A stretch of DNA of 33,188 nt, taken from contig JADFIY010000008.1 in assembly GCA_022566415.1 (NCBI GenBank), positions 1-33,188 of the forward strand, read 5' to 3'. The DNA is from Acidobacteriota bacterium. Lineage in GTDB: Bacteria > Actinomycetota > Acidimicrobiia > Spongiisociales > UBA5794. A program made the position numbers and the translations under genes. Below are positions 7,354-32,857 of this stretch, in pieces (position 1 is the first letter of the stretch; each line of letters begins with the position of its first letter). A model generated the notes under the pieces. It was not told the DNA's origin and ran no database searches. It saw only the letters and a program-made list of their open reading frames with translations.

Positions 7354-8238
7354 GTGACCGATCGTCCGTACGCGGCTTTGCGCGATCGGCTCGTTGGGTT
7401 CAGCGGTGTCGTCATGCTGCTCGGCATGGCGGAGACGGGAAAGACCGAGCTTGCCAAACTGATCGTCGCCGACGCGATCGCCTCCGGCACTTCGGTCGCC
7501 TTCGTCGACGGGGACGTTGGATCGAACGTGGCCGGTCCTCCGGCGACGACGGGGCTCAAATACGTTTCCGACGTCGCTGATCTCGATCCTTCGGTTGCGC
7601 CCGTCGAGATGAGATTCGTCGGGTCGACGACGCCTCAGGGGGTGGTGCTACCACACGTGGTGGCCGTAGCGACGTTGGTCGAAGTGGCTAGACCGAACGC
7701 TGAGCTGATCGTTGTCGACACATCTGGAATCGTGGCCGGGGTCGTCGGGCAGACCCTCAAATACCACTTGTGGGAGCTGATCCGCCCCGACCTCGTGATC
7801 GCGCTGGAGCGCGGGGAAGAGCTGGAGCCCATCATCGGGATGCTGCGCAGGTTCCTTTCGGCGAGAATCGCCACCGCCGAACCCGCAGGCGAGGTCATTG
7901 CTCCCTCTCCACTCGAGCGCCGGGAGCGGCAATCCAAAGCGTTCGCCGCCGCCCTGGCGCCACCGCTGCAACGGTGGCGGGTGCAAACCACGGTCTTTGC
8001 CCCGACGCTCCCCGACGGGTTCGATCCGTCCCGGCTGGATGGGATGCTGGTTGGGGTGCTCGATGATCAAGGCCGGTGCCTTGGCCTCGGCGTATTGGAA
8101 CACGACGATGACGTCCTCAGGGTGGCGACACACCACGGCGATTCCATGCGCGGCCTCAGACTCGGATCAATGCGAGTCGATCTGGAGACCTTCGACACGC
8201 AGCGGGTCCGGCTCCGCCAGCTCATCTTCGGGATTTGA
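7354..8238 (+). CDS. Clp1/Grc3-like P-loop protein (candidate polynucleotide 5'-hydroxyl kinase family)
   Basis: Walker A GMAETGKTELAK, VAFVDGDVGSNVAGPPATTGLKY, VVDTSGIV, lid-like SPLERRERQSKAF; AGGAGG SD before GTG. Confidence 0.65.
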   Translation: MTDRPYAALRDRLVGFSGVVMLLGMAETGKTELAKLIVADAIASGTSVAFVDGDVGSNVAGPPATTGLKYVSDVADLDPSVAPVEMRFVGSTTPQGVVLPHVVAVATLVEVARPNAELIVVDTSGIVAGVVGQTLKYHLWELIRPDLVIALERGEELEPIIGMLRRFLSARIATAEPAGEVIAPSPLERRERQSKAFAAALAPPLQRWRVQTTVFAPTLPDGFDPSRLDGMLVGVLDDQGRCLGLGVLEHDDDVLRVATHHGDSMRGLRLGSMRVDLETFDTQRVRLRQLIFGI

Positions 8239-8779: not shown

Positions 8780-10021
8780 CTATCTGTCCGCGCTCTTCGC
8801 GATGTCTTCGTAGAGATCGCGTAGCCGATTAGCGGCGGCCGGCCAGGAGAAACGCTTGGCGAACTTCGCGGCTCCGTTTGCTAGCTCTGCCTTGAACCTG
8901 GGGTGGTCGAGGATGGCGGTGATGGCGGCCGCAAACGATTTTGGCTCGTGGCCATCTACCAGGAGTCCGGACTCGGTATCGGCGACGGTATACGCCAGCC
9001 CCCCGACTCGGGCTGCTACCACCGGCAGACCACACGCCTGCGCTTCGACCGCCACCAGGCCGAACGATTCGGACCGCGACGGCATCACCAGCACGTCGGC
9101 GGCCCGGTAGAAGTCGGCGAGCTGATCGTGGGGTTGCGGTGGGACGAAATGTACGCGGTCGGAAAGGCCGAGATCGACGGCCAGGTCGCGGAGGTGGTCG
9201 ACTTCTTCGGTGCCGTCCTCCCCGCTGGGACCGCCTACGATCACGAGTTGGGTTTCGCCCTCTCCTGCGGCCACCGCCGATGGGATCTCGCAGAGCATCC
9301 GCACCGCGATGTCGATGCCCTTGTGCGCCTGGATCCGTCCTACAAACAGCGCGATGGGCTCGGCACCGAGCCCGATGCGGAGCCGGGCTAGGTCACGATC
9401 TCCTGGTGTGAACAGTCGATGATCGACCCCAGGGGGGGAAACGAACAGCCGCTCCGGGCTGGCGCCGTAGTGCTCGAGGAGATCATCGAACTCATACGGG
9501 GTGGCGGCGACCACACAGTCGGAGAGAGCGATGACCTCATCCTCGGTGCGCAGTCGCGCCGCGCTCGACCGCGGCTCGTCGGTCCCATGCGCGGCATCCT
9601 TCACCCGGCCCAGCGTGTGGAACGAGTTAGCCAGCGGAAGGCCAAGCGCTTGTTTGACCAGCACCCCCGCCCAGCCCGACAGCCAGTAGTGGGAGTGCAC
9701 CACATCGAGTCGCTTCCGATTGCGCCTCGTCCAGTCGACGATCCCGTCCCCAAAGGCGCCGACGTGTTCGATGAGTTCCGCGATCGGCAAAGGCTGTCGG
9801 GGACCGGCATCGATGTGGACGACGCGGTAGCCGGGCACCGGTTGCACCACCTCCGGTTGGTTTGGATCGGTGCGGCGGGTGAACACGACCGCGTCTATGC
9901 CCATCGAAGCCATGGTCGCGGCCAGCTCGTCCACGTAGACGTTCATTCCGCCGGCGTTGCCGATCCCCGGCTGGTTGAGCGGCGAGGAATGCATGGCAAC
10001 AAGGGCGACCTCCCTGATCAT
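8780..10021 (-). CDS. mshA: MshA-like D-inositol-3-phosphate glycosyltransferase (GT4)
   Basis: MHSSPLNQPGIGNAGGMNVYVDELAATMA, VVHSHYWLSGWAG, SFHTLGRVKD, SRSESFGLVAVEAQACGLPVVAARVGG. Confidence 0.85.
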   Translation of the reverse strand: MIREVALVAMHSSPLNQPGIGNAGGMNVYVDELAATMASMGIDAVVFTRRTDPNQPEVVQPVPGYRVVHIDAGPRQPLPIAELIEHVGAFGDGIVDWTRRNRKRLDVVHSHYWLSGWAGVLVKQALGLPLANSFHTLGRVKDAAHGTDEPRSSAARLRTEDEVIALSDCVVAATPYEFDDLLEHYGASPERLFVSPPGVDHRLFTPGDRDLARLRIGLGAEPIALFVGRIQAHKGIDIAVRMLCEIPSAVAAGEGETQLVIVGGPSGEDGTEEVDHLRDLAVDLGLSDRVHFVPPQPHDQLADFYRAADVLVMPSRSESFGLVAVEAQACGLPVVAARVGGLAYTVADTESGLLVDGHEPKSFAAAITAILDHPRFKAELANGAAKFAKRFSWPAAANRLRDLYEDIAKSADR

Positions 10022-10923
10022 GCGAATGTCCCTTCGATGCGGTAGAGCGGTCTGGGTGCTGCGCCCAGTCGGAACTTATAGGCCTCATCTCCTTTGAGCA
10101 GATCGAGTCGCACGGTTTGTCCTGCGATCAACGTCTCGATGACCGTTGCCAGCAACACGATGCCAGGGGATGCCACCGCCGCCTCTGGTGTGTAGGCCGA
10201 GTTGTACAGGAAGTATCCGTCGTCGCGGTCGAAGGCGAAGGCGGCGGCGACCGGCCCTCGCTTGGTGACCAGGAGGTCGATCGTGGCTCCGGCGTAGCCG
10301 ATGAGGTCGGCGAAGAACGCCTCTCGCTCCTTCGACATGAACCCGCCCTTGCTACCAGGGGCGCTGCGGTGCATCTCGGCGAACAAGGTCACGGCTGCCC
10401 GGTCGGATCGTCGCTCCAGCGAGGCCTCTCCCAGGATCGCCGAGAACCGGCGCCGTTTCCTTCTGACCTCGTGGCGGTCCTTCTTTGGCAAAGCGGCGAG
10501 CCACGCCTCGGGATCGTCTGGGAGGTCGATCACCGAAGTCATGGACTCGCCGGCGGAAGTGAAGCGATGACCCCCTGCCTTCAGGGCGTCGCGCAGAACC
10601 GAAGCAGCCTCCTCCGGAAGGCTGTCGAACGAAAATCGGTGTCCCGGAAAAGCCTCCGAGACGGCCTCCAGTGCCACCCGCGGGTCGCCAAGAGGGCTGT
10701 GGTAATCGGTTAAGTCGGCGTCGCCACAGAACATCACCGTGCCGTCGGAAACTCGGAGTGGCAGACCCCCCGTTGCTGCGGCGGCCAGCGCCAGGCGATC
10801 GGCGCCGGCCTGGTGGCGCCACCAGGTCTCCAAAAAGGCACTTTCGGGGAAGGGACCTGTGCCGACTGCGATCGGGGGGTGCGTGAACGGCTCGTTGGTC
10901 CACTCGCTGGACACGGAGGTCAT
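10018..10923 (-). CDS. GNAT/CelD-like (FemAB-type fold) acetyltransferase family protein
   Basis: KKDRHEVRRKRRRF...LFAEMHRSAPGSKGGFMSKEREAFF...AAFAFDRDDGYFLYNSAYTPE...LDLLKGDEAYKFRLG; ATGA overlaps both neighbours. Confidence 0.78.
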   Translation of the reverse strand: MTSVSSEWTNEPFTHPPIAVGTGPFPESAFLETWWRHQAGADRLALAAAATGGLPLRVSDGTVMFCGDADLTDYHSPLGDPRVALEAVSEAFPGHRFSFDSLPEEAASVLRDALKAGGHRFTSAGESMTSVIDLPDDPEAWLAALPKKDRHEVRRKRRRFSAILGEASLERRSDRAAVTLFAEMHRSAPGSKGGFMSKEREAFFADLIGYAGATIDLLVTKRGPVAAAFAFDRDDGYFLYNSAYTPEAAVASPGIVLLATVIETLIAGQTVRLDLLKGDEAYKFRLGAAPRPLYRIEGTFA

Positions 10924-11846
10924 GCGCGGATGACCGCGCCGACCGGCCTCCCCCCTCCGAGCACCGTCGCCTCGGCGACCTCCGACAACGCCTCGCGCGT
11001 TGCGTCGGAAATGAGACCCAGCTGGTCGGCGGCGGATACGGCAGCCGCCACTGCAGCACCGTTGTCTCCGGTACGCGCCTTGGTGGCAATCCCGACGCCG
11101 TGGCGGCCGAGACCGATCGTCCCTAGGGCGCCGACCTTGACCGGTCCACCCCACCAGCGGCCGAGTAGGCCTTCGGGACGCTCGTTGTCCGCAACCAGCG
11201 AGGGAAATCGGGCGACCGCATCTGCGGCCATGGCGAACCGGTTGTCGACGGTCAGCCTGGCAAACGCCAGTGCCAGGCCCTTGACGGTTCCCCTCGCCGC
11301 TTGCGCACCGCAGTGGTCGACCCCCGCCGGAGTGGCGGGGACGCCGGTGACGTCGGCGATCAACTCGACGATCCCGACCTGGAGAGGATGGTCGGGCTCG
11401 AGGTAGGTCTCCGTCGGCCAGCCGGCTGCGACGCAGGCTGCGAGCATCCCTGCATGCTTGCCGGAGCAGTTGTGAAAGATCGATCGCGGGTGGCGAGCGC
11501 CCCGTTGTTGCCGTAAGGCCGTAGCGCCCACGGAGAACGGCCACGCCGGCGGTGTCTGCAGCGCAGCCTCGTCGAGCCCTGCTGTCCCGAGGATGGCGCG
11601 AACGGTGGCGAGATGCACCGGCCAGCCGCCGTGGCTGGCACAGACGACCGCGAGGTGCTCGGGTGGGATCTGGAGCCCGGCTTCAATAGCGATTGTCGCC
11701 TGGAAGGGTTTGACCGCGGATCGGTAGTACATGGGGTGATCGGGGTCGCCAGAGCTCAGCAGCTCGTTGCCGGCCGCATCCACTGCGTACACGTCGACGT
11801 CATGGATCGCTTCGCCCAACCCGGATCGGACGATGACGAGGCGCAC
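10920..11846 (-). CDS. L-asparaginase II family protein
   Basis: RSAVKPFQATIAIEAGL...VVCASHGGWPVHLATV...FHNCSGKHAGMLAACVAAGW...VDHCGAQAARGTV. Confidence 0.85.
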   Translation of the reverse strand: MRLVIVRSGLGEAIHDVDVYAVDAAGNELLSSGDPDHPMYYRSAVKPFQATIAIEAGLQIPPEHLAVVCASHGGWPVHLATVRAILGTAGLDEAALQTPPAWPFSVGATALRQQRGARHPRSIFHNCSGKHAGMLAACVAAGWPTETYLEPDHPLQVGIVELIADVTGVPATPAGVDHCGAQAARGTVKGLALAFARLTVDNRFAMAADAVARFPSLVADNERPEGLLGRWWGGPVKVGALGTIGLGRHGVGIATKARTGDNGAAVAAAVSAADQLGLISDATREALSEVAEATVLGGGRPVGAVIRA

Positions 11847-23290: not shown

Positions 23291-23306
23291 GGTAATGTGT
23301 CCGACG

Positions 23307-23930
23307 ATGGCAAACATCCCACCTGCGACCGTCGCCAGGCTTCCCCTATACCTGCGGAGTCTCGCCTCGCTCCCGTCCGACCGGCCGACCTGTTCATCGG
23401 AAGAGCTCGCCCAGATCGCAGGGGTACAGTCGGCTCAAGTGCGCAAGGACCTCTCCCTGGTCGGGCTTCGGGGTGTGCGCGGCGTCGGCTACGACATCGA
23501 CGGGCTCCGCCTCCAGCTCACCAGGCTCCTCGGGCTCGACCACGAGGTTCGAGTCGTCATCGTGGGTGCCGGCAATCTGGGAAGGGCCCTCGCCGATTTC
23601 GCCGGCTTCCGTGAGTGGGGGTTCACCATCGTGGGTCTCGTCGACAACGATCCCGCCAAGATCGGCACCACGGTGGCGGGCGTACCCGTCAACGCCCTGT
23701 CCGACCTCGATCGCGTCGTCGGCGACGGCGAGGTGTCTATCGGCATCATCGCCACCCCACCCGGCGCCGCCCAGGACGTTGCACAGCGGCTTGCCGATAC
23801 CGGGATCCGCTCCATCCTCAACTTCGCCCCGACCGTGTTGCGTGTCGATGGAATCGAGGTGCGCCGTGTGGACCTGTCATCCGAGTTGCAGATCCTGGCC
23901 CACCACCTCCACGGACCAGGTGCACTCTGA
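23307..23930 (+). CDS. rex: Redox-sensing transcriptional repressor Rex (start 23307 or 23295)
   Basis: VARLPLYLRSLASL...CSSEELAQIAGVQSAQVRKDLSLVG..GVRGVGYDIDGL...VVIVGAGNLGRALADFAGF. Confidence 0.93.
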   Translation: MANIPPATVARLPLYLRSLASLPSDRPTCSSEELAQIAGVQSAQVRKDLSLVGLRGVRGVGYDIDGLRLQLTRLLGLDHEVRVVIVGAGNLGRALADFAGFREWGFTIVGLVDNDPAKIGTTVAGVPVNALSDLDRVVGDGEVSIGIIATPPGAAQDVAQRLADTGIRSILNFAPTVLRVDGIEVRRVDLSSELQILAHHLHGPGAL

Positions 23931-23948: not shown

Positions 23949-24422
23949 CTACTCGGCGACGTCTCGCTCGTAGCGGTCGAGGGCGAGGACGAACATGACG
24001 AAGAGGATGAACGCCGCGATGGCCATCGCGATGGCCGGTACCCGCACCTGCAGGGCGTTTAGGCCTTCGATATCCGCGGGGCGGATCCCGCGAGGCGCGT
24101 AGACGGTGAACAAGATCCCTCCGATTGTCAGCCAGCCAAAGGCAGCGGCGCCGACGACGAGGAACCCCAATCGGGATCCCAGGTTGGTGGATAGCACGAG
24201 CCAGATGGCACCGATGAAAGTGGCAACGGCCGCGATCGCAACGGTCACCCCCCGCATCATGACCGAGAAGTCGGTCAGCTCACCGGCGTCGTCGACCCGG
24301 TTGTAGACCCTGCCAACGAGTTCTTGCGCGGTCTCCCGCACGAACGGGATCATGGCAAGCAGAATCGCGAGCAGACCGAGTAACGCCAGCCACTCGAGCC
24401 TGCTCGCTCCACGTTGGTTCAT
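23949..24422 (-). CDS. Membrane protein of unknown function, last gene of the respiratory operon
   Basis: Four hydrophobic segments; TGATG overlap with the upstream cytochrome c gene. Confidence 0.7.
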   Translation of the reverse strand: MNQRGASRLEWLALLGLLAILLAMIPFVRETAQELVGRVYNRVDDAGELTDFSVMMRGVTVAIAAVATFIGAIWLVLSTNLGSRLGFLVVGAAAFGWLTIGGILFTVYAPRGIRPADIEGLNALQVRVPAIAMAIAAFILFVMFVLALDRYERDVAE

Positions 24423-26044
24423 CACAACGTCCTCTCGTACAGGGCGATCAGCAAGATGTCATCCGCAGTCAGCGAGGCTCCCCAACCCGGCATTCGTCCA
24501 GTGCCGATCCCGTTGACACCGTAATTCGCCGCACTTGCCGATCCCTCGATGACGAACTCGACATGATCTTCGAGGGCCGGGAACTGCACGAGGGTGCGCC
24601 CGTCGTTGATGGCTGGTGCCCAGGCGCCCCGACCGGGGCCGACCTCGAACGTCGAACCGGCGCTGTAACCACCGGTGTGGCACCGGGCGCAAGTGCTGTT
24701 GAACAACCCGACGGCCCGGGTGGCGTCCTCCACGGAAACCGGCGCACCGGCCCGTTCACTCATGGCGGCAGCAACCTCGTCGAAGTCGACGGACCACGGC
24801 ATCAGCTCGGCGGACTGGTTCAGGAATTCGAGGCCCTCGAGCAATGGCTCGAGAAAGTCATCCTCCTTGTCCGCCTTGATTTGGATGAGCAGCAGGTCGC
24901 CCTTGAGAGCTTCAAGCATCCGTTCGGCAGCGTCGAGGTCCGGGATCGGGATGCCGGCGTCGTCGGTGTTGGTAAAGGCGTTTGTCGGATCGAAGGCAAT
25001 TTCGTATGCCTGTTGCTGGATGCGGTTCGCAGTTCCGTCGGCGTTGAACGCCAGCTCGGTGAGCTGCTCGTAGGAGATGTCGGCGATTTCGGTCAGACGC
25101 GGCTCGATGCCATCGGTGAGCCCATCGCGATCGGTGTCGAGGCCGGGCTCGTCGCAGGTGGTGAGGGCGAGCTTCGCCGACTCCGGTGTGCAGGTGCCTG
25201 CTCCTCCCATCAGGTCGAGCATCTCGTCGGTGAGGCCGCCGGTGACCTCGATGATGGCCTTGGCGTCGGTGACGTCGTCGATCCGTGCCTGCTGACGGTT
25301 GATGCGCACCTGGGTGGCTGTTTCTCCGGTCTCGACCCGCAGCACCGCCGCGGTTACCCGTTTGTCGGTCTTGGCAACGACATCAGCCTGCGGAATCTGC
25401 CTGGAGCGGATGTAGGCGATCACCTGATCTATCTCCTGCGATGTCATCGCGCCGCCCCCGAGGAGGCCGTTCGCCGGCATCGGGGTGCCCCGGCGCCCGT
25501 ACTCGACCACGAACTCGACCTCGCTCTCGTCGAATCGGTACAGCACGTCGTTGAGGGACGGCACCAACCAGGCCGACTCCACCCCGCTGCGTGGCTCGAC
25601 AAACTGGAAGACTCCGCCACCAAGGTCTTCGCCGTGGCATTCGAAGCACTCGAACTGATGGAACCACCTGTCGCCCTCGTCGATGTCGAGCTCGCTGAGC
25701 GTTTCGATCGCATCCGCCTGGCGATTGGCTTCGTTGAACGCGTACCACGGCAGCAAGATGGCCATGCCGGCTGCGGCGATCACCGCTGCCCGCAGCACTC
25801 TGGTGGTGTGCACGTTCTCCAACTCGTCGTCGGACATATACGGCGTCTGATTCAGCGGCAGACGCTCGCCGGTCGCAGACCGAGACCGGCGGCTGTTGAC
25901 GAACAGGTATGCCAACCAGGCGAGAAGTGCCACCATCACGAGGATGAGGACAACCGCCCCGATGCCGAAGCCGCCGCCCGTCGACGTAACTTCCGGTTGA
26001 GCCGCGGCGAAGACGATGAGGCGTGAGTTCAGCGCCTCAGACAC
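24422..26044 (-). CDS. Membrane-anchored diheme cytochrome c with Ca-binding-like insert
   Basis: Two CxxCH motifs (CFECH, CARCH); N-terminal TM segments; DTDRDGLTDG motif between the heme domains. Confidence 0.85.
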   Translation of the reverse strand: MSEALNSRLIVFAAAQPEVTSTGGGFGIGAVVLILVMVALLAWLAYLFVNSRRSRSATGERLPLNQTPYMSDDELENVHTTRVLRAAVIAAAGMAILLPWYAFNEANRQADAIETLSELDIDEGDRWFHQFECFECHGEDLGGGVFQFVEPRSGVESAWLVPSLNDVLYRFDESEVEFVVEYGRRGTPMPANGLLGGGAMTSQEIDQVIAYIRSRQIPQADVVAKTDKRVTAAVLRVETGETATQVRINRQQARIDDVTDAKAIIEVTGGLTDEMLDLMGGAGTCTPESAKLALTTCDEPGLDTDRDGLTDGIEPRLTEIADISYEQLTELAFNADGTANRIQQQAYEIAFDPTNAFTNTDDAGIPIPDLDAAERMLEALKGDLLLIQIKADKEDDFLEPLLEGLEFLNQSAELMPWSVDFDEVAAAMSERAGAPVSVEDATRAVGLFNSTCARCHTGGYSAGSTFEVGPGRGAWAPAINDGRTLVQFPALEDHVEFVIEGSASAANYGVNGIGTGRMPGWGASLTADDILLIALYERTL

Positions 26045-26900
26045 AGAACGGGCCCTGCGGGTATTGCGCCGTCTTGTTCTTGGAACGAGCGGTCTCGACG
26101 ATCACTCCGGTCTGGATGATGAGGTCGCCGGCGTCGTTCACTTCGACTCCGAATCGGTCGAGGTTCCTCGGGGCCGGTCCTGCTTCATATTCCCCGTGGA
26201 TGTTGTACTTGGAGCCGTGGCAGGGGCACTCGAAGCCCTGCGATGGAACGCAGCTCGGCACCCGGCAACCAAGATGGACACACTTCTGCCACAAGGCCAT
26301 GACGCCGACGCCGTCGGCTTCGCCACCGGCAATGACGAACGGGGTGTTTTCGAACGAGGACCCTTCGAGCTGGTCGAGATCGAAGGTGACGAGCCAGGAT
26401 TGGGCGGACGCCCTGAACAGCGGGACGACGGCGCCGGCGACGCTGATCTCTCTCTTGATCTCCTCGAGGTTGCCGACGTTGACCGGTGAACCGAACCCAC
26501 CCCTCAGCTTCGGCCAGATGAAGGCAAGGGAGGCGAGCGCAAACTGGAGAAGGAACAATCCGAACACGGCGAGGAGCGCCCGGTTGAAGAACTGCCGTCT
26601 GGTGACGTTGTATTCAGCGACGGTGACTTCGATTTGATCGGTGAGCGGGTCGGCCGTTGCCTCCGGTGGCGCCTCGACGACGGTGGCAACGGCAGCAACC
26701 GTGACTTCGTCGTCGGCGGCCTGTTGCTCGGCCTTCATGGCTCGCGACGCCTCGTCGGCCTGTCTCGCCTTGACGTCGAGCTCTTCGACGGTAACCGGCC
26801 CTGCCGAAGGGTCGCGCCTGAAGGCGACCGCGAAGATCCCGAGCACGGCGAGCGCTCCGGTGATGAGGATGCCGATGATGAAGATGCTTGTTGCGTCCAT
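26037..26900 (-). CDS. qcrA: Rieske 2Fe-2S protein (QcrA-like)
   Basis: CVHLGC...CPCHGSKYNIHGEYEAGPAPRNLDRF. Confidence 0.92.
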   Translation of the reverse strand: MDATSIFIIGILITGALAVLGIFAVAFRRDPSAGPVTVEELDVKARQADEASRAMKAEQQAADDEVTVAAVATVVEAPPEATADPLTDQIEVTVAEYNVTRRQFFNRALLAVFGLFLLQFALASLAFIWPKLRGGFGSPVNVGNLEEIKREISVAGAVVPLFRASAQSWLVTFDLDQLEGSSFENTPFVIAGGEADGVGVMALWQKCVHLGCRVPSCVPSQGFECPCHGSKYNIHGEYEAGPAPRNLDRFGVEVNDAGDLIIQTGVIVETARSKNKTAQYPQGPFCV

Positions 26901-26903
26901 GTC

Positions 26904-27830
26904 CTAGTCGAGAATCGTCAATAGGTCGTCGAAGAAAATGCCGTCTCGCCATGGGAACACGAAGTTGAACCCGGGTCCCCTGAAGAAGGAGCCGAAGATG
27001 GTGAGGATCGCCGCCGCGACAATGAAGAAGGTGAAGATCATGATGGCCAGCTTGCGGTCGGAGGGCCGGATCGACGGGTTTCGGTCCACATAGGGGATGA
27101 ACATCAGCGCGATCAGGCCGAACGTTGGGATGAACACTCCTGCCACCATCGGGTCGAAGTAGGCCAGCAGCTCCTGAAGCCCGAGGAAGTACCACGGCGC
27201 CTTGGACGGGTTCGGCTGCTCATTGAAGTTGGCGAACTCGAGGAGCGGTGCGTCGACGAAGATCGAAACAGCAGTCAGGACCACCAGGATCACAAGCAAC
27301 GCCACAAACTCGATCGCCAGCAGATGTGGCCAGACGCTCACCTTGTCCGTCGGTTCCCGCTTGACCTGCTGGATCGCTCCCGCTTTGACGACGGTGAGCA
27401 GGCGCTGGGTGCGAACTCCCTCGGGAACCGCGGGGGCGGGAGCGGGGGCTGTGGTGGTCGGCGGCGGGGCGGTGGCAACCGCGGTTCCCCCACCGGCAGG
27501 GGTGGCGATGGTCGGGTCTGGTAGCCCGTCGTGCTTGGCCCTTGCCCGCGTCGCGCGCAGCAATATTGCCTCCGGCACCCCGGTCTCTACAGACAAGGCA
27601 GCGACGTCGATGCCGCCGTTACCTGATGCAACCGGCGGCGCTGCCGGTGCGGTCTCGGGAGGGGCAGGGGCAGGAGCTGGTTCGGTTTCCGCAGGAGCCG
27701 GTTCGGCCGGCGACGATGCTGCAGGAGCTTCCCCGGTCATCTCGGCGAGTACCTCTTCGACCGGGCGACCTTCCGCCTTCGCTCTGGCCTCTGCCGAGCG
27801 CCGCAGGATGTCTTCTGGGATGTCGGCCAC
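26904..27830 (-). CDS. Cytochrome b C-terminal half (subunit IV-like) with N-terminal mini-domain repeats and Pro/Ala linkers
   Basis: NPSKAPWYFLGLQELLAYFDPMVAGVFIPTFGL is subunit IV-like; GGAGGAGCCC-GTG start; N-terminal repeats DIPEDILRRSAEARAKAEG.. and GVPEAILLRATRARAKHDG.. Confidence 0.85.
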   Translation of the reverse strand: MADIPEDILRRSAEARAKAEGRPVEEVLAEMTGEAPAASSPAEPAPAETEPAPAPAPPETAPAAPPVASGNGGIDVAALSVETGVPEAILLRATRARAKHDGLPDPTIATPAGGGTAVATAPPPTTTAPAPAPAVPEGVRTQRLLTVVKAGAIQQVKREPTDKVSVWPHLLAIEFVALLVILVVLTAVSIFVDAPLLEFANFNEQPNPSKAPWYFLGLQELLAYFDPMVAGVFIPTFGLIALMFIPYVDRNPSIRPSDRKLAIMIFTFFIVAAAILTIFGSFFRGPGFNFVFPWRDGIFFDDLLTILD

Positions 27831-27840
27831 GGGCTCCTCC

Positions 27841-28617
27841 TTAGAGCGGACCGGATACGCCGCCGTCTTTACGCACCCGCCAGAAGTGCACGGACATGAA
27901 CAGCACGATGATGAACGGGAGGAACAACACGTGGAGCACATACCACCGCAGCAGCGTGTCCGCTGAGATCTGCACCCCCCCGATCAGAGCGAAACTGACG
28001 CTATCTCCGAACACCGGCGCATACGACCCCATCGTCGAACCGACGGTGAAGGCCCACAGCGCCAGCTGATCCCACGGGAGTAGGTAGCCGCTGAACGACA
28101 GCAGCAGCGTCAGCAGCAACAGGATGACGCCGACGACCCAGTTGAACTCCCGAGGTGGCTTGTAGGCGCCGTGATAGAACACTCGCGTCATGTGGAGGAA
28201 CACAGTCAGCACCATGAGGTGCGCTCCCCACCGATGCATGTTGCGCACGAACTGGCCGAAGGCGACGTCTGTAGCAAGCGCCTGGATGTCGATGTACGCC
28301 TGGGGCGACGTTGGCCGGTAGTAGAACATGAGGAAGATCCCGGTGATGGTCAGCACCACGAACAGGAAGAACGACAGGCCCCCGAGGCACAGGGTGTAGG
28401 ACAGGCGGACCCCATGCCGCTTCACCTTGACCGGGTGCAGGTGGTACATCACGTTGTTCATCACCACGTAGGAGCGGTTCCTCGGTGTGTCCGAGTACCC
28501 ACCTCGAAACGGTGAGCCGGGCCGGAAGATCGAGGTCCACACCTGGCTGGAGCGAAACTGCTCGGACAAATCGTTGAGCAGCCCGGTGATCCCTCCGTTG
28601 CCGTTACCTTCCGCCAC
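27841..28617 (-). CDS. qcrB: Cytochrome b N-terminal half (b6-like QcrB)
   Basis: [87 protein letters not shown] motif as in b6. Confidence 0.92.
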
Positions 28618-28650: not shown

Positions 28651-29097
28651 TCAAGTCCGCAATCCGTACGCGTACCCGTTCTTGAAGTCTCGTTGCCCGG
28701 TATCCAATTCCCATGGTGCGTTGGTGAATTCGACCGCATTCTCGGCGAGCGAGCCGGCGAACTTACCGAGGCTGATCACCCCGGTCGGGCAGCGGTCGAC
28801 GCACAAGGCGCACCGGGTGCATTCGTCCTCGTCGACGATGAACACGCCTTGGTTCTCTGCGTCGTCGGCCGGGTTGTCGACGTTCGCTGCCTCGGCGATC
28901 ACGTCGACGGACAGGTAGTGGATGCACTTCCATGGGCAAATGTCGACGCAGCCCTCGCAGAGGATGCATTCGGCCTCATCGATGTGCAGGAACTGCTTTG
29001 GTTTCACCGCCGCGGTCAGGTAGTCCCCTTCGACGGCGGCGAGCTGATAATCGTCGCGCATCGGCGGTATCTCGAACCAAACATCACTCTTCGCCAT
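28651..29097 (-). CDS. 2x[4Fe-4S] ferredoxin-like protein in the respiratory operon
   Basis: CILCEGCVDICPWKC and CTRCALCVDRCPTG. Confidence 0.88.
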   Translation of the reverse strand: MAKSDVWFEIPPMRDDYQLAAVEGDYLTAAVKPKQFLHIDEAECILCEGCVDICPWKCIHYLSVDVIAEAANVDNPADDAENQGVFIVDEDECTRCALCVDRCPTGVISLGKFAGSLAENAVEFTNAPWELDTGQRDFKNGYAYGLRT

Positions 29098-29669
29098 CAG
29101 TCCTCCACGCGGATGGGTCGGCCGTATTCGGAGATTCGCTGCGGCTTCGGCTGGTCCTTCTTCTTGTCATAGTTCTGCCAGAGGACCATGGCGGCGGCCA
29201 CCACGATCAGGGTCGTGAACGCGTACCCGCCGACGACCATGTCCTTGAACGTCTCGTAGGTGATCGTGAGCTCATTGCCGAGCACGAGGACGGGCGGGAT
29301 GGTGAGGAGGGTCCTCGCCGATGTCCACTCCAGCGGACCTTGCGCCAGCGTCAGCATCTGATTGGGGATGACGCCGAACACGATGATCATGAGAGCGGTG
29401 AACAGGCCGGCACCCAGGGTCGCCGTCACCCAGGTCAGCGGGCGATCGTAGACAAAGGCCAACGTGGCCCCAGCCATGGCAAGCAGCACCCCGCCCAGCG
29501 CGATGTTCTGGGCGATCGTTACCCATAACCAGCCGCGTGGGACCAGCGAGTACACCTCGGCTCCGAGGTCGTCCAGCACCGGCGCCTCGGTGGCATGCAC
29601 GAGCCATGAGCCGACGATGACGGTGACTAGGCCAATCGCAATCGCGGCCAAACCGATGCCGAGCTTCAC
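29097..29669 (-). CDS. Four-TM membrane protein of unknown function, first gene of the respiratory operon
   Basis: 190-aa hydrophobic ORF; TGATG overlap with the ferredoxin gene. Confidence 0.72.
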   Translation of the reverse strand: MKLGIGLAAIAIGLVTVIVGSWLVHATEAPVLDDLGAEVYSLVPRGWLWVTIAQNIALGGVLLAMAGATLAFVYDRPLTWVTATLGAGLFTALMIIVFGVIPNQMLTLAQGPLEWTSARTLLTIPPVLVLGNELTITYETFKDMVVGGYAFTTLIVVAAAMVLWQNYDKKKDQPKPQRISEYGRPIRVED

Positions 29670-29812: not shown

Positions 29813-31756
29813 GTGGAGGGCAGCGGGCACGTGACCGCGGACATCGACGCTGGAGAGAGCGCAACCGGGTCGATGGATTCCGGTGAAGACGGCGCAGGTG
29901 GTCGCGTCGTCGGAGCCCACCTGACGCTGGCGATCCTGTTCTTCATCGTCGCCATCATCGGGGCGACCATCGCCGCCTACCAGCTCGCCGTTCCCGGGTC
30001 CCTCGACGGCATCGCCTTCCTGTCCTATGGCCGGCTCACCCCGATCGTGACCAGCCTGTTCCTGTACGGATGGTTGACCCTCGGCTTCCTCGCCGCCGTG
30101 CATCACGTACTCCCTCGCGTCGCCGGACGGCCGCTGGTCGCCACGATCACGGCGCACCTCTCGATGGCGCTCATCGCTATCGGCGTGGTGGTCGGCTCGA
30201 TCGGCATCGCCTTCGGCCAGAGCGAGGGCCGCCCCTACCTCGAGATGCCGCTCTACGCCGACGCCCTCATCATCGTCGGGTTGGCCCTCGCTGCGTTCGT
30301 GGCGACGAGGAACGTGGCGCCAAGCAGAGAACATATGGTTCCTGCTCAGTGGTACATGCTCGCTGCTACGTGGTGGGCGGTGCTCGCCGTCCTGATCGGC
30401 AACGTGCCAGGAGTCACCGGATTCGCCGGTGCCATGCAAACCGGATTTTTCCGGGCTGCCATAACAGGCTTCTGGTTTGCCGCAGCCGGAATCGGGCTCA
30501 TCTACTACCTCATTCCCCGCATCGTCGGCACCCCCGGCCCGATGCGGGCATCGTCGTTATCCGCCCTTGGGTTCTGGTCGCTCGCCGTGGTGTGGGCATC
30601 CACGGGTCCTGTCATGTTCATCTACGGCCCAGGGCCCGGCTGGTACGAGACCGTTGGCGTCGCCTTCTCGATTGGCCTGCTCGTTCCGGTGCTGATCATC
30701 GTGGCCGACTTCTTTGTTGCTATGCGCGGCCAGTGGCTCCACGTCACCGAGCGGGGGCTCCTCTCCTTCATCCTTCTCGGTGCTTTCCTCTTCGTGCTCA
30801 TCCCGGTACAGAACCTCACCCAAGCACTGCGCACGTCGAGTGCCGCCGTCCAATTCACCGAGTGGGTACCCGCCGCCGATACCCTCGCCTACGTTGGCGC
30901 TTTTTCGCTGTGGCTGTTCGCGCTCGCCTACGACATCAAGGGACCCGGTGCCGCCGGCACCGAGAGAGCAACCTGGCATCTGCGATTGTCGCTGGTCGGG
31001 CTGTTCATCATTCTTGCTGCGATGTGGATGGGCGGCGCCGTCACCGGATTCACCTGGGCGGCCGGGGCCAATTCGGGGGAGTTCACCTCGTTCGGTGACG
31101 GATGGGCGCAAGTCGACAACGCCCTTGCTCCGTATCTCAGCATCCGGGCTATCGGTACCGGTTTCTTTGCCTTTGCGCAGATCCTCCTCCTTTCCGTCGT
31201 CATCGGGCGCTCTAGGAAGGACGCCCCGCTTGCGGTGACCGAGGTCCCGCCGCTCGATCTGGATATCGCGGGCGAGCCCGGGTCGCCGTCGTGGATATCG
31301 TTGCGATTCGGTGTGGTGGCGCTGTTCTTCTTGGCCCTCGTGTTGACGGTGCTGCTCCCCTCCTTCGACCCCGAGGTGGATAACGGTACGGTCCTCGGCG
31401 ACCGTGATCGGGTGTACCCCGAGGGCTCTACGGTTGCCGCGGGGCGCGCCGTCTACATCCAGGAAGGGTGTTATTACTGCCACACCCAGGAGGTGCGGCC
31501 GATCATTACCGATGTCGGGCTGGGCCAGGTGAGCCGGGCCGGCGACTATGTCCACGAGACGCCGGCGCTCCCAGGTGTGGAGCGTCTCGGGCCCGATCTC
31601 ATGCACGTCGCCGGCCGCTACTCCAACGCCGGCGTGCTGAAGTCCCGGCTCATTGATCCTCGCGGATCGCGCTCGTGGTCGATCATGCCGTCGTACGAGC
31701 GGTTGTCCGACGAGGATCTTGATGCCCTGACCACTTATCTGATGTCGCTGAGGTAG
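29813..31756 (+). CDS. CcoN-like/CcoO-like fusion; CcoN scaffold apparently without heme-copper ligands, CcoO domain with intact heme c motif
   Basis: LSYGRLTPIVTSLFLYG, GFFRAAITGFWFAAAGIGLIYYLIPRI, STGPVMFIYGPGPGW, FTEWVPAADTLAYVGAF align with CcoN ligand motifs but lack His; EGCYYCHTQEVRPIITDVGLG...SIMPSYERLSDEDLDALTTYL is CcoO-like. Confidence 0.85.
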   Translation: MEGSGHVTADIDAGESATGSMDSGEDGAGGRVVGAHLTLAILFFIVAIIGATIAAYQLAVPGSLDGIAFLSYGRLTPIVTSLFLYGWLTLGFLAAVHHVLPRVAGRPLVATITAHLSMALIAIGVVVGSIGIAFGQSEGRPYLEMPLYADALIIVGLALAAFVATRNVAPSREHMVPAQWYMLAATWWAVLAVLIGNVPGVTGFAGAMQTGFFRAAITGFWFAAAGIGLIYYLIPRIVGTPGPMRASSLSALGFWSLAVVWASTGPVMFIYGPGPGWYETVGVAFSIGLLVPVLIIVADFFVAMRGQWLHVTERGLLSFILLGAFLFVLIPVQNLTQALRTSSAAVQFTEWVPAADTLAYVGAFSLWLFALAYDIKGPGAAGTERATWHLRLSLVGLFIILAAMWMGGAVTGFTWAAGANSGEFTSFGDGWAQVDNALAPYLSIRAIGTGFFAFAQILLLSVVIGRSRKDAPLAVTEVPPLDLDIAGEPGSPSWISLRFGVVALFFLALVLTVLLPSFDPEVDNGTVLGDRDRVYPEGSTVAAGRAVYIQEGCYYCHTQEVRPIITDVGLGQVSRAGDYVHETPALPGVERLGPDLMHVAGRYSNAGVLKSRLIDPRGSRSWSIMPSYERLSDEDLDALTTYLMSLR

Positions 31757-31759
31757 TCG

Positions 31760-32857
31760 ATGGCCGAATCATTCGACGAACTCGAATCCAGCATCGGCGT
31801 ACCCGCTGATCTCCTGCAACGCGCCGCCGCCGCCAGGGCAGAGGCAGACGGTAGGACGACGGAGGCGATCATCGCCGAGTGGTCGGGCGGAGAACCTCCT
31901 GTCGCGGCGCCTGCACCGGCCGCAGGCGGAGAGACCGAACCGACCGCGGATGCGGCCGGATTGCCGTCGGCCGAGTCGTTGATCGGCGAGGCGCTGGTGA
32001 CGGCGGCCGCCGAAGCCAAAGGGATCCCTGCGTCGTTGACGGAACGATCTGCCAGGGCGCGGGCTGAGGCAGACGGCGTTTCGGTGGAACAGGTCATGCG
32101 GGACTGGGTTGTGGAGGCCGGGTTGGCGACGGCCGAAGTTGCCGCAGCTGCGCCGGCTCCAACGACGCCGGAGCCGGCGGCGACCCCAGCTGTGGCTCCG
32201 GCATCGCCCGCCGCAGCAACCCCCGCAGTGGAAGAGCCCGCCGCGCCGGCTGTCGAAGTGCTGCCACCGACGGTGCCGGTCGATGAGGCAGCCGACGAGG
32301 AGGAAGTGGAGCAGCGCATCAGTCGATACCCAGCCTGGCTGGCGGCGGTGCTGGTTGTAATTCCGCTGCTGGCGGCGCTGTACGTCGTTGTGGTTCCGAA
32401 CCAGCCGATTTGCGGAAGCGCCGGTCAGCTCGCCGTCGATCCGGCAACTGGGCTCGCCGCCAACTGTGACGGGTCGGCGTTCGGCGAGCACGAGGCCAGC
32501 AACGTCCGGTTCGGCGCCGAGATCTTCGCGGCCTCCTGTGCCGTCTGTCACGGCGCCACGGGGGCCGGCGGGGCAGGCCCAGCGTTGGCCGGCGGCGCCG
32601 TGCTCGAGACCTTTCTCGAAGGTGCGTGCCAGTCGCACATCGAGTGGGTGACGCTGGGCTCTGCCGGCTGGCCCGATGCAACCTACGGGGCGCAGAACAA
32701 GCCGGTCGCCGGCGGAATGCCTTCGTTTGGGCGCCTCACCGAGACCGAGTTGGCCCAGGTGGTGCTGTACGAACGGGTTGCGCTCGGTGGCGAGGACGAG
32801 GAAGCTGCCGAAGAAGAATGCGGATTCGCCGAAGAGGGCGAAGCCGCCACAGGCTGA
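31760..32857 (+). CDS. Membrane-anchored monoheme cytochrome c with two N-terminal mini-domain repeats on Pro/Ala-rich linkers
   Basis: CAVCHGATGAGGAGPALAGG; TM RYPAWLAAVLVVIPLLAALYVVVV; repeats GVPADLLQRAAAARAEADG.. and GIPASLTERSARARAEADG.. Confidence 0.85.
   Translation: MAESFDELESSIGVPADLLQRAAAARAEADGRTTEAIIAEWSGGEPPVAAPAPAAGGETEPTADAAGLPSAESLIGEALVTAAAEAKGIPASLTERSARARAEADGVSVEQVMRDWVVEAGLATAEVAAAAPAPTTPEPAATPAVAPASPAAATPAVEEPAAPAVEVLPPTVPVDEAADEEEVEQRISRYPAWLAAVLVVIPLLAALYVVVVPNQPICGSAGQLAVDPATGLAANCDGSAFGEHEASNVRFGAEIFAASCAVCHGATGAGGAGPALAGGAVLETFLEGACQSHIEWVTLGSAGWPDATYGAQNKPVAGGMPSFGRLTETELAQVVLYERVALGGEDEEAAEEECGFAEEGEAATG

Follow-up and report, generated by a model that had tools for sequence, protein, structure and literature searches.

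Histidine ligands are what defines the heme-copper oxidase superfamily, and the locus described here raises the question of what a protein of this superfamily could be doing when none of them is present. In the window (the whole stretch of DNA that was analyzed, 33,188 nucleotides in length), the ORF at 29813-31756 on the forward strand, which has a GTG start and encodes 647 residues as listed, specifies a CcoN-like protein fused to a CcoO-like cytochrome c and, judged from its sequence, is homologous to cbb3 oxidase yet fails the features that define that enzyme. Translation probably begins at the GTG of 29831, giving 641 residues, since GGAGG lies 11 bases upstream of it and the pattern (V)T.(D/E) is conserved there in relatives; the residue numbering used throughout follows the 647-residue count of the initial annotation. 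The gene and the codons at issue are as follows.

29813..31756, forward strand: ligand-free CcoN fused to a mono-heme CcoO-like cytochrome c (Pfam COX1 and FixO, PDB alignments, fold search)
30047..30049, forward strand: codon 79, Val, at the low-spin heme b ligand column (CcoN H60; HMMER and MAFFT)
30455..30457, forward strand: codon 215, Ala, at a CuB ligand column (CcoN H207; HMMER and MAFFT)
30611..30616, forward strand: codons 267-268, Val-Met, at the CuB ligand pair (CcoN H257-H258; HMMER and MAFFT)
30875..30883, forward strand: codons 355-357, Ala-Asp-Thr, at the HVH motif (CcoN H345 and H347; HMMER and MAFFT)

The CcoN-like part spans residues ~32-460 and the CcoO-like part residues ~491-647, matching Pfam COX1 (92.5 bits, residues 32-448) and FixO, the CcoO family (81.8 bits, residues 536-640). 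The resemblance to CcoN across the helices, first drawn by eye, is upheld by the COX1 match, by alignments to PDB chains, in which CcoN (3mk7, 9g6b and 8smr, E about 1e-15) is the best relative and CcoO chains are also among the nearest, and by a fold search. In the latter, CcoN chains take the first six places among the PDB matches of the predicted, low-confidence model (E 7e-9 to 4e-8, target TM 0.63-0.66), ahead of NO reductases and A-type oxidases. The AlphaFold model was built on a four-sequence alignment and is poor (pLDDT 44, pTM 0.44); it cannot place side chains, and it supports a predicted CcoN fold but not side-chain detail. The initial annotation had further expected automated annotation to name the protein a cbb3 oxidase, an outcome less certain than it had supposed: in Pfam, COX1 and FixO pass their cut-offs, but in NCBIfam no model reaches its cut-off with the 647-residue protein. 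The ccoN, ccoO and fused CcoNO models score far below theirs (e.g., 104 vs 583 bits), and even the best match, to fused CcoNO (PRK14485 / NF011053), has 191.6 bits against a cut-off of 1080.

The ligand columns were located with HMMER alignments to five solved CcoN chains, and MAFFT alignments agree with them. In the numbering of Pseudomonas stutzeri CcoN, H60, H207, H257, H258, H345 and H347 are replaced by V79, A215, V267, M268, A355 and T357, respectively, exactly as the initial annotation had proposed for all six heme and CuB histidines. Low-spin heme b is thus without both of its His ligands (V79 and T357), and the His of heme b3 (A355), which together with a low-spin heme ligand makes up the HVH motif, is absent along with the three of CuB (A215, V267 and M268). 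The cross-linked tyrosine of the active site (CcoN Y251) is replaced by Trp, and Tyr occurs at this column in none of 53 ligand-free relatives. A replacement ligand was sought in these 53 sequences, and every His, Met, Cys or Lys column stays below 60% conservation; histidines that had been named as candidate ligands elsewhere in the chain, such as H36, H97/H98 and H115, accordingly have no column at or above that level. Catalysis of oxygen reduction by such a ligand-free CcoN would, by known chemistry, be impossible. The CcoO-like part is different in that it does retain its CYYCH and IMPSY motifs, as had been noted, and the CXXCH is kept in 49 of 50 relatives.

The absence of ligands is a property of a large group of proteins. 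Relatives are present in 38 of the 50 genomes of the family and in 115 of the 138 genomes of the order, which is not the distribution of a degenerate sequence in a lone genome, and none of the six His is present in any of the 53 aligned Actinomycetota relatives that fall outside the canonical group, which represent several families and classes. Beyond the order, ligand-free relatives come from families f12, f13 and f15 of the same class and from f64, f68 and f94 of the same phylum. All six His are found in the relatives from f74, f75 and f83, and the recovery of these sequences demonstrates that the alignment detects the ligands where they are present. (Beside the six-His CcoN relatives of f74 and f75 lie CcoO-like proteins with five CXXCH motifs, at L109:10338-12359 and L117:7388-9319, respectively.) Two relatives from Verrucomicrobia (loci L024 and L025) retain the H60 column only. 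Whether ligand loss marks a conserved clade had been left to a phylogeny, and the tree does separate the six-His from the ligand-free sequences (SH-aLRT 97); a topology with a single ligand-free clade excluding Verrucomicrobia is not rejected (AU p 0.72), which the tree does not prove. A single chain unites CcoN and CcoO in f1, f6, part of f4 and f13; in f2, f3, part of f4, f5, f7 and f8, CcoN, CcoO and a CcoP-like protein have a gene each, arranged in this order like the genes of a ccoNOP operon. The cluster is present also in the ~1-Mb genomes of family f12, which is probably Actinomarina. WhiB genes place the host genome, in which no 16S was found, in Actinomycetota; its class is probably Acidimicrobiia and its order probably UBA5794, which has been described as the sister order of Actinomarinales (PMC12008989).

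The reading frames are intact and without internal stops in nearly all relatives, and an independent assembly (JACZST010000021.1) carries a 98%-identical protein. Against this 98%-identical relative dN/dS is 0.13 for the CcoN part and 0.17 for the CcoO part, compared with 0.09-0.11 for the neighboring ferredoxin, cytochrome b and TM190, values indicative of purifying selection on the ligand-free CcoN-CcoO gene. Even so, no other subunit has diverged as far between genera as the CcoN-like part, whose median identity is 33% vs 80% for cytochrome b, as is expected of a scaffold that has no active site. What is maintained is a 12-helix scaffold with the invariant residues G73, R74, W255, W277, R340, T349 and W415; no strictly conserved charged residue within a helix was found in the wider set of relatives.

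The setting of the gene is equally constant. It is followed by the gene of a membrane-anchored cytochrome c and preceded by a divergent operon for a menaquinol bc complex, the components of which are listed here with the basis of each assignment.

31760..32857, forward strand: membrane-anchored mono-heme cytochrome c, 365 residues, CcoP-like by position (Pfam Cytochrom_C, conserved neighbor)
29097..29669, reverse strand: TM190, small conserved membrane protein, first gene of the divergent bc operon (synteny)
28651..29097, reverse strand: 2x[4Fe-4S] ferredoxin-like subunit (Pfam Fer4; two CxxCxxCxxxC motifs in 50/50 loci)
27841..28617, reverse strand: cytochrome b, b6-like (Pfam PF00033; the only Cytochrome_B match of the genome)
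26904..27941, reverse strand: PetD-like cytochrome b C-terminal subunit with an N-terminal extension (Pfam PF00032)
26037..26900, reverse strand: Rieske iron-sulfur protein (Pfam PF00355; motif in 44/46 loci)
24422..26044, reverse strand: diheme cytochrome c subunit, 540 residues (Pfam Cytochrome_CBB3/Cytochrom_C; two CXXCH in 42/46 loci)
23949..24425, reverse strand: p158, small membrane protein at the end of the bc operon (synteny)

A bc-type complex alongside the gene had been recognized in this window, and the divergent operon in fact adjoins the CcoNO-like gene in all 45 loci checked in the order, an arrangement found in f12 as well. In many loci the cluster is flanked on one side by a geranylgeranyl-reductase-like gene and genes of complex I, on the other by a Rex regulator; here the Rex-type redox-sensing repressor adjoins the bc operon at 23295-23927 on the forward strand, and it has the same position in 33 loci. 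The 2x[4Fe-4S] ferredoxin-like subunit of the bc complex is conserved in 50/50 loci. The two operons also share a motif of ~38 residues (for example, IPEDILRRSAEARAKAEGRPVEEVLAEMTGE), two copies of which are in the N-terminal extension of the PetD-like subunit (27465-27830, reverse strand) and two in the N-terminal part of the CcoP-like cytochrome (31799-32134, forward strand). A search of the whole genome gave only one other match, in an antitoxin-like frame (E=0.27), and the motif faintly resembles ribbon-helix-helix antitoxins. Its presence in both operons hints that their products may be in contact.

The initial annotation had suggested a check of the genome for a separate catalytic oxidase, and this check found a single set. 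The only other COX1 of the host genome belongs to a canonical caa3 COX1/2/3/4 set, on contig C43, with COX2 fused to cytochrome c; no bd oxidase was found in that genome, and the caa3 genes and the CcoNO-like gene are on different contigs. In 78 high-quality genomes of the order, an A-type COX1 is present in 65 of the 66 that have the protein vs four of the 12 that do not (Fisher p 1.8e-7, with no correction for kinship). G048 is the sole high-quality genome that has the protein but no detected A-type oxidase, and gaps in the MAGs could account for it as well as for the four genomes with an A-type oxidase that appear to be devoid of the protein. In two genomes, G099 and G100, cytochrome b is present, no oxidase was detected and the protein is absent. 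In two others, a second COX1 of lower score (G111:C8 and G116:C196) is accompanied, at a distance of a few kb, by a cytochrome b of its own.

The two sets of genes are physically joined in some relatives. At locus L098, ctaC, COX1, COX3, COX4 and CtaG sit between the CcoN-like and the CcoO/CcoP-like genes, such that the ligand-free CcoN-like protein (9092-11218, reverse strand), which here has a C-terminal cupredoxin domain, is within a caa3 operon. In Verrucomicrobia (L024 and L025), the gene order is ActC-D-E-F, CcoN-like, CcoO-like, cytochrome c, COX1 and COX3 (L024:5459-16799). A module of the same kind is found beside A-type oxidases with two types of complex III, which suggests that it is a bridge between them.

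On balance we consider it probable that the protein belongs to a cbb3-derived CcoNOP module, free of heme b and equipped with c hemes, that bridges the bc complex to caa3. An ancestral cbb3-type (C-type) CcoN-CcoO-CcoP set would have lost every heme b and CuB site, leaving as the redox groups of the module only the c hemes of the CcoO-like and CcoP-like parts. Electrons would pass from menaquinol to the bc complex (Rieske protein, then diheme cytochrome c), from there to the CcoP/CcoO-type c hemes and then to caa3; the CcoN-like part, devoid of metal, would anchor the module in the membrane and offer a docking surface. In a bc-caa3 assembly the module would serve as a bridge or as a docking subunit, and it would be the constant partner of the divergent bc complex. 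We infer the physical association, the electron route and its direction in bc-CcoNOP-caa3 from genomics. A wider version of this proposal can be offered only tentatively, namely that a metal-free heme-copper fold is an obligate and ancient subunit by which an A-type oxidase is linked to complex III, whether to the bc complex, as in Actinomycetota, or to alternative complex III, as in Verrucomicrobia. The c hemes would then be the sole redox groups, the shared cytoplasmic motif would join the parts, and the membrane part might have a function of its own.

Other roles have to be weighed against the bridge. The module might serve the bc complex alone, in a structural or assembly role, with CcoN as an anchor or stabilizer of the CcoO heme domain and electrons leaving to a soluble or other carrier. 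In the order, the strict linkage is indeed to the bc operon and not to the cox genes; L098 and Verrucomicrobia are the only cases in which cox genes are part of the cluster. These are, however, two independent cox-adjacent arrangements, and the co-occurrence of the protein with A-type COX1, together with its absence from the two genomes that have cytochrome b and no detected oxidase, makes a role confined to the bc complex unlikely. It is less probable still that the CcoN-like part has a redox-free membrane function of its own, for example as a proton path or quinone site. The 12 helices and their invariant residues have been maintained over very long evolutionary times, and alternative complex III offers a precedent in its cofactor-free NrfD-like subunits (PMC8076601), but a part that is the least conserved of all the subunits, and in which the wider set has no strictly conserved intrahelical charge, is not what such a function would predict.

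That heme or metal is bound by new ligands, in a protein still catalytic as an oxygen or NO reductase or acting as a sensor, would be in keeping with the retained heme-copper oxidase fold, and is made very improbable by the His, Met, Cys and Lys columns, all of which are below the 60% level in the 53 relatives. As for a decaying gene or an assembly artefact, the low overall identity among the relatives is what one might expect of it; the intact frames, the 45/45 neighborhood, the dN/dS of 0.13 and the independent 98% assembly leave it practically no credence. Pseudogene, frameshift and lone-genome readings are ruled out by the intact frames, the relatives, the dN/dS and the independent assembly.

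The bridging module can be compared with several known systems. Its homology and fold, its mono-heme CcoO domain and its N-O-(c) gene order are those of the cbb3 oxidase CcoN-CcoO(-CcoP) (e.g., 3mk7), whereas the ligands of heme b, heme b3 and CuB and the active-site Tyr are not there, and the CcoP-like partner has one CXXCH where CcoP has two (ccoP model, 21.5 vs 180 bits). Subunits I and II are in a single chain as in the fused CcoNO family, from which the protein differs by its score under the cut-off, by its absent ligands and by the split genes of relatives in other families. The bc1-cbb3 supercomplexes (8smr and 6xkw) likewise partner a bc complex with a CcoNOP set, a partnership predicted here from synteny and the shared motif, but in those CcoN reduces oxygen, while in the present case there is no active site and caa3 is encoded separately. 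A further parallel is the verrucomicrobial L024/L025 cluster, in which a CcoN-like protein without a complete heme/CuB site lies between complex III-type genes and an A-type oxidase, although it has alternative complex III rather than bc, keeps the H60 column and has separate CcoN and CcoO.

No published account of a ligand-free CcoN was found in the open literature that was searched. A widely conserved branch under selection beside complex III, with no ligands, shows that the heme-copper fold can be put to use without its chemistry, and it points to a new type of connection of complex III with caa3 in abundant uncultured Actinomycetota. MAGs with "caa3- and cbb3-type" oxidases have been reported (PMC8357290). 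In genomes such as these, calls of "cbb3 oxidase" made at family level from COX1-domain matches, and read as a sign of microaerobic respiration, can be mistaken.

Two other ORFs of the window are unusual. One, at 33-1505 on the reverse strand, combines the N-terminal domain of a class II ribonucleotide reductase with PDZ and M50 peptidase domains; it lies at the end of the contig, where GC is lower, and is possibly a chimera. The other, at 7354-8235 on the forward strand, encodes in a bacterium a CLP1-type P-loop protein that resembles polynucleotide kinases.
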